Source: a virus
DNA: 23,580 nucleotides
IMG/VR virus record: IMGVR_UViG_3300028573_000058
Span: 1 to 23,580 of that record
Strand: one strand, 5' to 3'
The notes beneath the pieces are model-generated. The model saw only the letters and a list, made by a program, of their open reading frames with translations, was not told the DNA's origin and searched no databases. Of the stretch, positions 20,101-23,580 are shown piece by piece. Positions within the stretch are counted from its first letter, which is position 1. Each line of letters begins with the position of its first letter. The position numbers and the translations under genes are program-made.

Positions 20101-20322
20101 ATGTTCAATCGAAAAGAAGAGAAGAAGCAGATGCGGTACTACGCGGTGCGGCTCAAGGATCAGAAGGACCCTGAGTATGTGAAGGCCGACAATATGCGCC
20201 GCGGTTACTCGGGCGCAGCGACGGAGAAGGATTATTTCTTTCTGAACGGTGCGCAGATGGTGGCCGTGTTTCCGGGTGCGCTGGTGCTGGGCGTTACCTC
20301 GACGCGCTTCCAGTCTGACTAG
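20101..20322 (+). CDS. Small protein at end of late operon, unknown function
   Basis: A 73-residue protein, MFNRKEEKKQMRYYAVRLKDQ..., preceded by GGAGGG at a good distance. The N-terminus is very basic and is followed by a strand pattern (YYAVRLKD, DYFFLNGAQMVAVFPGALVLGV) suggesting a small beta fold. The hydrophobic C-terminal run is short and contains a Pro, so a membrane segment is doubtful. Its stop overlaps the integrase stop on the opposite strand within a CTAG. It marks the end of the rightward late genes, with a hairpin/T-tract terminator candidate shortly after. Confidence 0.65.
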   Translation: MFNRKEEKKQMRYYAVRLKDQKDPEYVKADNMRRGYSGAATEKDYFFLNGAQMVAVFPGALVLGVTSTRFQSD

Positions 20323-21554
20323 CCGGTCTTGCGGGTTTGTGCACCGGCGGCCGGATCATTGACCGCCGGCTTCTTCTTCGTTTCAAGCGTGAGCACGGCC
20401 GCGTACTTCACCTGGCGGCGCTGGTGCGCGTAGTACTCCATCATCTTGCGGCCGACGTGTCCGGCGATGGCGATGACGGTCTCGGGGTTGACGCCGTTCT
20501 CAAGCATCTTGGTGATGCACAGGTGGCGCAGATCATGCGGCTTCAGCTCGAGGAACCCGGTGCACTTCTGCAGCTTTGCCCAGCTCTTGCGCAGGAAGTA
20601 GGGCGAGGCTGGCCGGGTGGGATCATACTTGTTGCGCTTGATGCGGAAGGGGAAGAGGAAGTGGTTGGGCTCGCAGGCTCCGAGTTTGATGGCGCGCTTG
20701 AGGCATTGCTCCACAGCCCAACGGGCGAGATTGTTGAGCGCGATGCGCCGCGGCCGTGAATCGTTCTTGACGCTGTCTTCGGGGATGTAGAACTCGGCGA
20801 TCTGCGAGGTGAGGAAGAGGTGCTTGAGGCGCAGGCCGCGCAGCTCGATGCCGCTGGCGGTGGTGTTGGCGGTGATGGCGGCAACCCAGTAGGCCAGGGC
20901 GGCTTCGGGATGCTTGCTGGCCACCTTCCAAAGGGTCTCCTCGTCTTCCTCGCTGAGGATTTCGCGCGGGCTCCATGACTTCTGTTCAAGCGGAAAGTAG
21001 TAAGGCTTGATGCGGTGCCAGAGGCGGGCGAAGGTCAGCATCTGGCCGAGCACGCTGATCTCATGGTTGATGACGGAGTTGCCGGCAGCCTGCTTCCAGG
21101 GATGAGATTCTCCGGCCGTCATGCGCAGCGTGTTGTGGATGCGCGCGATCTGGTAGGCGCGGAGCTGGCCAGGCGTGATGTCGCAGAGGCGAACCTTACC
21201 GAAGAAGACGCGCAGCGCGTTGATGTAGCTTTCGGTTGTTTCATGGGTGCGCGGGCGAAGGCTGGGATCCTGGGCGCGGTAGAGGATCCAGAATTTAGCA
21301 GCGGCTTCGAAGCCCATCTCGGCCAGGTCGGCGGCGGTGACAACCAGCGCGGTGTTGGCGCCCTGGCACGCCGGGCAGTCGATATGGTCAGGCGTATGCT
21401 CAAGAGTCTTATCGAGCGCGTAAGGATCGAAGGTCTTTTCTATAAGTGCCAGGCGGCTCATATCTTCTTCAGGAACGCCGACGAGAGGTGAGTTGACCAG
21501 GGAATCAAAGTCACGAGTAAAGCCGTCTGACGCTTTATCAGTTGGCCGAATCAT
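20319..21554 (-). CDS. int: Tyrosine recombinase (phage integrase) with Ser at catalytic Arg I
   Basis: A 411-residue integrase from ATG 21554, chosen because TTGGAGGGCGT stands directly before it. The frame is open for 35 more residues to ATG 21659, but that stretch is a repeat array. Residues about 40-80 contain a CPAC motif (DCPACQGAN). A SAM-like core-binding domain follows (SYINALRVFFGKVRLCDITPGQLRAYQ). The catalytic domain has K263, H340-D-L-R343-H344, H366 in AGHVG, and the nucleophile Y375 in YYAHQ. The usual first Arg (R-x-x-E) is Ser234 in TTASGIEL. Tyrosine integrases perform site-specific recombination between attP and attB, here presumably at the tRNA-Arg fragment 750 bp away. 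Either the Ser substitution is compensated or the enzyme is impaired. Confidence 0.88.
   Translation of the reverse strand: MIRPTDKASDGFTRDFDSLVNSPLVGVPEEDMSRLALIEKTFDPYALDKTLEHTPDHIDCPACQGANTALVVTAADLAEMGFEAAAKFWILYRAQDPSLRPRTHETTESYINALRVFFGKVRLCDITPGQLRAYQIARIHNTLRMTAGESHPWKQAAGNSVINHEISVLGQMLTFARLWHRIKPYYFPLEQKSWSPREILSEEDEETLWKVASKHPEAALAYWVAAITANTTASGIELRGLRLKHLFLTSQIAEFYIPEDSVKNDSRPRRIALNNLARWAVEQCLKRAIKLGACEPNHFLFPFRIKRNKYDPTRPASPYFLRKSWAKLQKCTGFLELKPHDLRHLCITKMLENGVNPETVIAIAGHVGRKMMEYYAHQRRQVKYAAVLTLETKKKPAVNDPAAGAQTRKTG
20344..20384 (+). terminator. Terminator candidate for late operon, inside integrase 3' end
   Basis: CCGGCGG (20344-20350) pairs with CCGCCGG (20363-20369) around a 12-base loop. 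The run CTTCTTCTTCGTTT follows on the plus strand. This would stop rightward transcription 20-60 bases after the last late gene and prevent reading into the integrase antisense strand. It lies in the region encoding the integrase C-terminal tail, so it is constrained by two functions. The interrupted T-tract makes it weaker than the one at 3165. Confidence 0.5.
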
Positions 21555-21563
21555 ACGCCCTCC

Positions 21564-21668
21564 AAGGCAATTCGCTTGTGAGCCTAAAGTTGTAGCGGAT
21601 GGCTCTAAATGGTTCATCTGGATGCCTAAGTGACTCGTTTTGATACACAAGTGAGTCATTTATACGTC
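21564..21668. repeat. 21-bp tandem repeat array upstream of integrase
   Basis: Units start at 21606, 21627 and 21648, exactly 21 bp apart, with plus-strand cores TAAATGGTTCATCTGGATG, TAAGTGACTCGTTTTGATA and CAAGTGAGTCATTTATACG. Two more degenerate units appear to lie at 21564 and 21585. Read on the integrase strand, they translate as heptads (THLCIKT, SHLGIQM, NHLEPSA, TTLGSQA, NCLGGRM), which confirms the period. Since 21 bp is two helical turns, same-face protein binding is a natural reading, for example by the adjacent ribbon-helix-helix proteins or as integrase arm sites. The array fills the divergent region between the integrase start and the gene at 21693. Confidence 0.7.
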
Positions 21669-21692
21669 TCGAATTATGGTTATCCTTTGTAG

Positions 21693-21869
21693 ATGGCCCA
21701 GAAAAGGTTGCAGGTGGGATTCACCGTTCCCCAGCACAAGCTGCTTGAGAAACTGGCGGCGAAGCTCGGGTTGGATAAGAACAACACGATCCGCTATTGC
21801 GTGGCCCGCATCGCCGAGCAGGAGTTGGCGCCTCGGGATCGATCGTCGGCAGCGGATAGCTCGCGGTGA
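21693..21869 (+). CDS. Small ribbon-helix-helix DNA-binding protein (first)
   Basis: A 58-residue protein that begins MAQKRLQVGFTVPQHKLLEKL, continues AAKLGLDKNNTIRYCVARIAEQE and ends with a polar tail. The pattern of one strand (RLQVGFTV) followed by two helices, with an Asn/Thr turn at the start of the second, fits the Arc/MetJ/CopG fold, in which dimers insert the beta-ribbon into the DNA major groove. It is divergent from the integrase, and the 21-bp repeats lie between them, so autoregulation or integrase control is likely. No clear Shine-Dalgarno precedes ATG 21693 (CCTTTGTAG), so initiation may be weak or leaderless. Role as excision factor, repressor or both is unresolved. Confidence 0.65.
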   Translation: MAQKRLQVGFTVPQHKLLEKLAAKLGLDKNNTIRYCVARIAEQELAPRDRSSAADSSR

Positions 21870-21908: not shown

Positions 21909-21966
21909 TTAATGCAAGGCAAAAAGTGACTAAAGTGCGAAATAATTTATTAACGCCTTGCATTAA
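21909..21966. repeat. Perfect 12-bp inverted repeat with 34-bp spacer (operator candidate)
   Basis: TTAATGCAAGGC (21909-21920) and GCCTTGCATTAA (21955-21966) are exact inverse copies, 46 bp centre to centre. The spacer is AT-rich and contains AAGTGACT, an eight-base match to the second unit of the 21-bp array, then the similar AAAGTGCG. The right arm overlaps the -35 element of the candidate promoter for the gene at 21994, so binding there could repress it. The distance between arms suits DNA looping or cooperative binding by a small dimeric regulator. Confidence 0.65.
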
Positions 21967-21993: not shown

Positions 21994-22215
21994 ATGTCAA
22001 GCAAGGATCAGAAAGCGAAACAGCTTCGGAAAAAGCCAGCGAAAGCCCGTATGGGGCGGCCTCCGGTCGACGTGCCCAAGGAGAACGTGACGGTTCGAAT
22101 GGGCGCCGATTTGCTGCGCGCGGTCGATGCGTGGGCAAAGGAGAACGGCGATCTGACGCGTTCCTCGGTGATTAGTTTGGCGGTTTCGCAGCTCGTGAAG
22201 AAGCAGGTCAGCTGA
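21994..22215 (+). CDS. Small ribbon-helix-helix DNA-binding protein (second)
   Basis: A 73-residue protein with a very basic N-terminal arm (KDQKAKQLRKKPAKARMGRPP) and then a typical ribbon-helix-helix core: ENVTVRMGADLLRAVDAWAKENGDLTRSSVISLAVSQLVKK. The strand NVTVRM would contact DNA; the two helices form the dimer core; T-R-S-S at the start of the second helix matches CopG-type proteins. The gene follows the 12-bp inverted repeat and appears to have no ribosome binding site. It sits just upstream of the promoter and palindrome at 22224-22259. A repressor of the early promoter, an autoregulator or an excision factor are the likely roles, and the sequence cannot decide between them. Confidence 0.78.
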   Translation: MSSKDQKAKQLRKKPAKARMGRPPVDVPKENVTVRMGADLLRAVDAWAKENGDLTRSSVISLAVSQLVKKQVS

Positions 22216-22259: not shown

Positions 22260-22298
22260 GTTTCATAACAACCTGGCAGTAGTCTTCTGAAGTGGTTT

Positions 22299-22376
22299 AG
22301 AGCAACGGCTGAAAGCGGTTAGAGCATCAGCCTTCTAAGCTGAGGGTTGCGGGTTCGAGCCCCGCCTTGCCTACCA
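22299..22376 (+). other. Partial tRNA-Arg(TCT): probable phage attachment site (attP or att half)
   Basis: From 22314 to 22376 the sequence is a normal tRNA 3' part: end of the D-loop and GAGC, anticodon arm 22327-22343 with anticodon TCT (22334-22336), variable loop, T-arm GCGGG/TTCGAGC/CCCGC (22349-22365), acceptor strand CTTGCCT, A and encoded CCA (22374-22376). The 5' part does not work: positions where GCTC should form the D-stem read TGAA, and only about four of seven acceptor pairs can form. The bases 22299-22313 still resemble a decayed 5' half. This is the signature of integration into the 3' part of a tRNA gene, with the integrase close by. A functional tRNA is unlikely. Confidence 0.78.
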
Positions 22377-23169: not shown

Positions 23170-23580
23170 ACACAACCCAATTTCAGAAACTGCTTCGCGA
23201 TCTTCGAGCATGCTCCGATGCCCGCGCCTGGGCGAAGGGAAAAGACCTTCACGAAGCCTGGACCACCTGCGAGCGCGCCGACTGGCTGCTTTGGCTCGCT
23301 AGCCAAATGGCAGACAAGCCTGGCTGGCCGACGAGGAAAGAGATCGTTCTCGCCGCCTGCGCCTGCGCTGAGACGGCACTGAAGTATGTAAAGCCCGGTG
23401 AAGACCGGCCGCGCATCGCCATCGAAACCGCGCGGGCGTGGGTCCGCGGCGAGGCGAGCATCGAAGATGTTCGCCTCGCGCGAGAAAACGCCTACGCCGC
23501 CTACGCCGCCGCCGGCGCCGCCGCCTACGCCGCCGCCGCCGCCGCCTACGCCTACGCCGCCGCCTACGCCGCCGACGCCG
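23166..23580 (+). CDS. Imm5-like protein with Ala/Tyr repeat tail, truncated at window end
   Basis: Starts at GTG 23166 inside the previous stop region (GTGA overlap) and remains open through the window edge, giving at least 138 residues. The first 108 residues include LLRDLRACSDARAWAKGKDLHEAWTTC, ADWLLWLAS, LAACACAETALKYVKPGEDRPRIAIE and TARAWVRGEASIEDVR. That order recalls the 'putative immunity protein' (Imm5-type) domain, common in phage early regions and beside toxins. From residue 109 the chain becomes an Ala/Tyr repeat coded almost entirely by GCC and TAC. In this family Ala-rich helical tails are common. No toxin gene is visible, so an immunity role is uncertain. It could equally be a phage protein that modulates host or rival-phage functions. 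Confidence 0.72.
   Translation, partial: MNTTQFQKLLRDLRACSDARAWAKGKDLHEAWTTCERADWLLWLASQMADKPGWPTRKEIVLAACACAETALKYVKPGEDRPRIAIETARAWVRGEASIEDVRLARENAYAAYAAAGAAAYAAAAAAYAYAAAYAADA
23490..23580 (+). repeat. GCC/TAC low-complexity repeat
   Basis: The final 91 bases consist almost only of GCC codons with TAC, one GGC and one GAC, encoding an Ala/Tyr tract. Uniform codon choice suggests growth by replication slippage. The repeat continues past the window, so its full length is unknown. Confidence 0.85.

Follow-up and report, generated by a model that had tools for sequence, protein, structure and literature searches.

CopG of the pMV158 family is a small repressor that controls a plasmid replication operon and binds side by side on one face of the DNA. 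In Escherichia coli, dimers of the ribbon-helix-helix (RHH) repressor RelB, an antitoxin with 6-bp subsites, bind cooperatively to repeats that lie on the same face of relO, and the spacing of these repeats matters (PMC2812701). Omega (ParB) of pSM19035 is an RHH protein that reads short, non-palindromic repeats overlapping promoters, the WATCACW heptads, which form contiguous 7-bp units (PMC9499535). In the intS/TorI system of KplE1, the promoter region of a tRNA-associated integrase gene overlaps the att site and binds regulators that the module itself encodes (PMC2951348).

Here, we analyze a 23,580-nucleotide stretch of viral DNA, referred to as the window, in which a phage integrase gene and the gene for a 58-aa RHH protein are divergently arranged on either side of a repeat array. 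The 58-aa protein is close to CopG in size and in predicted fold but only marginally similar to it in sequence, and its partner is an integrase gene whereas that of CopG is a replication operon. We liken the proposed operator array to relO and to the omega heptads; however, no toxin partner was identified for the window RHH protein, and the units in the window and its relatives measure 10–11 or 21 bp as opposed to 7 bp. A 7-bp, omega-type phasing was not prominent in the pooled data of 19 intergenic regions. As in KplE1, we propose that the promoter region of a tRNA-associated integrase gene is bound by a regulator encoded in the same module. In the window, however, the integrase promoter and the presumed att core lie apart, with a divergent gene for a dedicated RHH protein between them. 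Most likely, both arrangements keep the integrase gene under tight control, and the dedicated repressor of the window takes the place of the att/promoter overlap.

Results

The integrase gene and its divergent RHH partner

The tyrosine integrase gene is located at positions 20319–21554 on the minus strand, as identified by matches to Pfam Phage_integrase (E 3.6e-14) and to the phrog_1 integrase profile (E 1.8e-32) as well as by a fold match to Tn1549 Int/Cre/XerA. Among the INPHARED phage genomes, we found no relative of this integrase. Residues 1–51 of the integrase model are disordered and followed by helices. Behind the disordered N-terminus, residues 53–63 (21366–21398, minus strand) form a conserved stretch of the family, HTxDHxxCPAC, which is possibly a metal-binding DNA-binding domain unlike that of lambda Int. 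The true start of the gene is ATG 21554. The strong Shine-Dalgarno sequence that a preliminary description had reported in front of this codon can be read directly from the sequence as GGAGGG (21563–21558, minus strand), and the position of the ATG is conserved. A Shine-Dalgarno sequence also precedes the integrase ATG in relatives, and the distance from this ATG to the RHH ATG amounts to 138 bp in the window, L019, L020, L024, and L028. In L022, L025, and L029 the distance to the RHH start is 134–140 bp, so that the integrase start is conserved at 134–140 bp in eight loci.

The divergent RHH gene on the other side of the array, also correctly placed in the preliminary description, lies at 21693–21869 on the plus strand and encodes a CopG-like regulator of 58 aa, the putative reader of the array. 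Its AlphaFold2 model (pLDDT 79) contains helices at residues 12–25 and 29–45 and an extended N-terminus. The predicted structure has the layout of RHH proteins, i.e., an N-terminal strand and two helices within ~45 residues, with the strand being an element that forms in the dimer and is not visible in a monomer model. The top Foldseek match of the model was CopG (1b01; prob 0.99, TMt 0.81), followed by Arc and antitoxins. The profile match to CopG was weak (E 0.1), as were the matches to PHROG and NCBIfam. None of the Pfam RHH families (e.g., RHH_1) matched, and we therefore label the protein RHH-fold, with no named Pfam family. Homologues of the RHH protein are encoded divergently to an integrase at every IMG/VR locus found. 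A survey of 399 host-class genomes yielded 6 with a homologue, again divergent to an integrase save for the weakest match, L038. Relatives occur in an Acidobacteriaceae MAG and in related genomes, from which we infer an acidobacterial host group.

A putative −10 box of the RHH gene, TATCCT, was detected at 21681–21686 on the plus strand, 6 nt before the RHH ATG. Among 17 non-redundant loci, T-12, A-11, and T-7 of this −10-like box are present in 13, 14, and 13, respectively. Given this position of the box, transcription of the RHH gene would begin at or next to the ATG, and its mRNA is probably leaderless. On the integrase side, a sigma-70 promoter scan revealed no convincing promoter.

Beyond the RHH gene, the window carries a partial tRNA of the arginine type (anticodon TCT) at 22307–22365 on the plus strand, which matched Rfam tRNA with 38.4 bits (model positions 9–63 of 71) and represents the presumed att core; no complete tRNA was found in the window. 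The relatives have tRNA-like segments ~330–420 bp past the RHH start, and these segments are likely to be att cores as well. At L029:3886 and L032:5390, a tRNA-Arg-like segment lies ~385–390 bp past the RHH start, on the strand opposite to that in the window. In the relatives measured, the presumed att core follows the RHH gene at a shorter distance than in the window, where a second RHH gene (21994–22215; RHH_1, E 0.0013; phrog_876 repressor, E 8e-5) sits between the two. Just 5' of this second gene, at 21909–21966, is a 12-bp inverted repeat without mismatches, TTAATGCAAGGC / GCCTTGCATTAA, whose arms are separated by 34 nt; it is possibly the operator of the second RHH gene. A 22-bp tandem at 22287–22330 precedes the partial tRNA. 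The position of the presumed att core inside the record suggests that the phage DNA in it is joined across attP. A GCC-rich 9/12-bp tandem repeat, which apparently codes for an alanine/tyrosine-rich protein, was observed at the right end of the record (23489–23580).

Period and extent of the repeat array

Written in rows of 21 nt on the minus strand from position 21659, the intergenic region reads ATGACTCACTTGTGTATCAAA / ACGAGTCACTTAGGCATCCAG / ATGAACCATTTAGAGCCATCC / GCTACAACTTTAGGCTCACAA / GCGAATTGCCTTGGAGGGCGT. The 21-bp period of these rows is real: identity at lag 21 is 38/84 compared to a shuffle mean of 21.3, a value reached by none of 5000 dinucleotide shuffles, and only 5 of 5000 such shuffles attained this level at any lag between 6 and 40. 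Strong likeness is confined to the first two rows, unit 1 (ATGACTCACTTGTGTATCAAA, 21639–21659) and unit 2 (ACGAGTCACTTAGGCATCCAG, 21618–21638), which are identical at 14 of 21 positions. Unit 3 (ATGAACCATTTAGAGCCATCC, 21597–21617) is weak, with 8–9/21 identities to units 1 and 2, and so is unit 4 (GCTACAACTTTAGGCTCACAA, 21576–21596), with 7–10/21 to units 1–3; 13 nt of unit 4, CTACAACTTTAGG, are found again in the intergenic region of L034. The fifth row, GCGAATTGCCTTGGAGGGCGT, contains the Shine-Dalgarno sequence, shares 5–9/21 positions with the other rows, and is probably not a repeat unit. The array is thus degenerate and, at the integrase end, shorter than previously stated. Of the three clear and two weaker units originally proposed, the period stands but the count does not.

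To scan both strands of the window, we used a weight matrix built from six units of three relatives only (L019, L020, and L022), which form one clade. The two best positions in the entire 23.6 kb, +21651 and −21638, are both inside the array. The top position marks a plus-strand match at 21651–21671 whose score was reached by none of 1000 shuffles of the region. This match overlaps unit 1 and carries the array toward the RHH gene, so that the motif exceeds the originally described span (21564–21668) on that side. The second-best match is unit 2, whose score 2 of 1000 such shuffles attained; unit 1 itself ranks third in the array region. Tandem Repeats Finder reported nothing in the array, even at a score of 30. 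The two-fold symmetry of the units was not above that of shuffles, and we do not claim a palindrome.

Conservation of the array as DNA

Pairwise alignment of the intergenic regions gave weak signals, with z values of 2.1–2.7 for two of three close relatives, and the matrix scan was the sharper method. The motif had no strong match in L012, whose integrase is closely related but is accompanied by a different small gene. When 19 non-redundant intergenic regions between integrase and RHH genes were pooled, self-matching peaked at lags 11, 21, 22, 32, and 43 (Z 7.4, 4.5, 3.5, 3.3, and 2.5, respectively), which is the pattern of sites recurring each helical turn. At the same lags, 28 integrases without this RHH gene, mostly more distant integrases, gave Z values of −1.3, −1.4, −0.1, 1.4, and −0.3. 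The control set has peaks of its own at lags 9 and 17 (Z 3.7 and 2.9), and Z values of ~3 from single-base shuffles should therefore be treated cautiously. What stands out is the lag-11 peak (7.4) together with the harmonic series. The clearest 11-bp form is present in L028, which reads TATGCGCGATT TACGCACCATT TTGCCCCGGAT TATGCACGCAT TATGCACGTTT. The window array shows no lag-11 signal (Z −0.3), its unit being two turns, and the pattern of one site per turn thus rests on the relatives.

Covariation of words in the proposed operator with the RHH strand

The 5-mer content of the operator tracks residues 4–10 of the RHH beta-strand when the integrase and the rest of the RHH protein are controlled for. 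The partial r was 0.28 (p 0.002) for 17 loci and 0.42 (p 0.001) for 12 closer loci, with permutation p values that are optimistic since the loci are related. Operator 5-mers showed no link to integrase identity (p 0.4–0.55), nor was there one between the RHH strand and four further 82-bp stretches from these loci. The window shares operator words most strongly with L019, L020, and L022 (0.31–0.36 vs. 0.08–0.23 for all others). The RHH proteins of these three loci have the strand residues R5, Q7, and G9 of the window protein; the window integrase is nearer to those of L029 and L032. Because the correlation is no weaker for inward-facing strand residues than for outward-facing ones, the covariation concerns the whole strand. 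As a correlation, this is consistent with the property of the RHH class that the strand determines the operator sequence.

Alternative explanations

The integrase frame is open from ATG 21659 (446 aa) and the 21-bp period is divisible by three, which would allow the repeats to be read as heptads in an N-terminal extension of the integrase. The codon usage of such an extension, however, is worse than that of all 143 same-length gene segments in the window and lies outside the range of genes, and its GC3 is 0.49 compared to 0.79 in the integrase body. Most relatives have in-frame stops upstream of the integrase ATG that follows the Shine-Dalgarno sequence, a start whose distance from the RHH gene is conserved (134–140 bp, eight loci), and their main period of 11 is not divisible by three. 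Heptads are absent from every relative's integrase examined. Codon use, frame breaks, and start position rule out the coding extension, which we regard as having practically no chance of being correct. The preliminary description had favored binding sites over coding and had suggested comparing the array across related phages; this comparison, in which the DNA motif recurs and the frame is broken by stops, bears out that preference.

Whose binding sites these are is a separate question. The array adjoins the integrase gene, and in KplE1 autoregulation of the integrase through the att/promoter overlap is documented, with the prediction that it is widespread among tRNA-integrated prophages (PMC2951348), so the units could be arm-type sites of the lambda/KplE1 kind, perhaps contacted through the unusual conserved HTxDHxxCPAC stretch of the integrase if this is a DNA-binding domain. 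We consider this very unlikely. Arm-type sites are expected close to the core, and the array does not suit them because the presumed att core is ~650 bp away, beyond the RHH gene; the presumed cores of the relatives are likewise placed past the RHH start, by ~330–420 bp. Operator words are independent of integrase identity, and phased repeats are missing from integrases without this RHH gene, albeit in controls that are mostly more distant. Genes for recombination directionality factors (RDFs) are often located beside the integrase gene or the att core, which is where the small DNA-binding protein is nearly always encoded at the loci studied here. The RHH protein might therefore be a dual factor that binds the array, as one of several regions, to repress the integrase gene and also acts as an RDF, with an RHH fold in place of the usual winged helix. 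TorI, which directs excision and represses intS, combines these activities (PMC2951348). Nevertheless, this reading is unlikely: RdfS, an RDF, is a winged-helix protein (PMC11963761), and our literature search for an RHH-fold RDF found none. The att core of the window and those of L019, L020, and L022 have no operator-motif match at or near them, which agrees neither with arm-type sites nor with an RDF role. Between arm-type sites and operators, the two possibilities raised at the outset, operators of the neighboring small regulator are clearly better supported.

Discussion

Taken together, we think it probable that the array is a cooperative operator of the divergent 58-aa RHH repressor. The data directly support that the array is non-coding, periodic, and conserved, that it is linked to the RHH gene, and that it covaries with the strand by which the RHH protein reads DNA. 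As to mechanism, we infer that RHH dimers bind the array, and they would do so cooperatively, side by side along one DNA face. Most relatives would offer about one site per helical turn, and the window phage a composite unit every two turns (21 bp). The operator would fill the 138-bp region from ATG to ATG, abutting the −10 box of the RHH gene and extending to the integrase Shine-Dalgarno sequence. An autoregulatory operator has repeats on one face that overlap its own promoter, and this is the arrangement seen in the pooled lags and in the sites just upstream of the putative −10 box. The sign of regulation would accordingly be negative on both sides: bound RHH protein may keep RNA polymerase off the RHH promoter, resulting in autorepression, and also off an integrase promoter presumed to lie within the same region, which would lead to low integrase levels in the lysogen.

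Each element of this locus is of a known kind and the proposed mechanism is ordinary. Our literature search found no divergent RHH/integrase operator, and the module consisting of integrase, phased operator, RHH gene, and att site is apparently undescribed. The findings suggest that acidobacterial phages share a conserved module for integrase control, in which a dedicated RHH repressor is combined with a phased operator of ~138 bp and with an att site on the far side of the repressor gene. Because the operator and the DNA-reading strand change together, the relatives constitute a natural series for the RHH recognition code. They would also offer a simple entry point to the control of lysogeny in phages of a soil phylum that is common.
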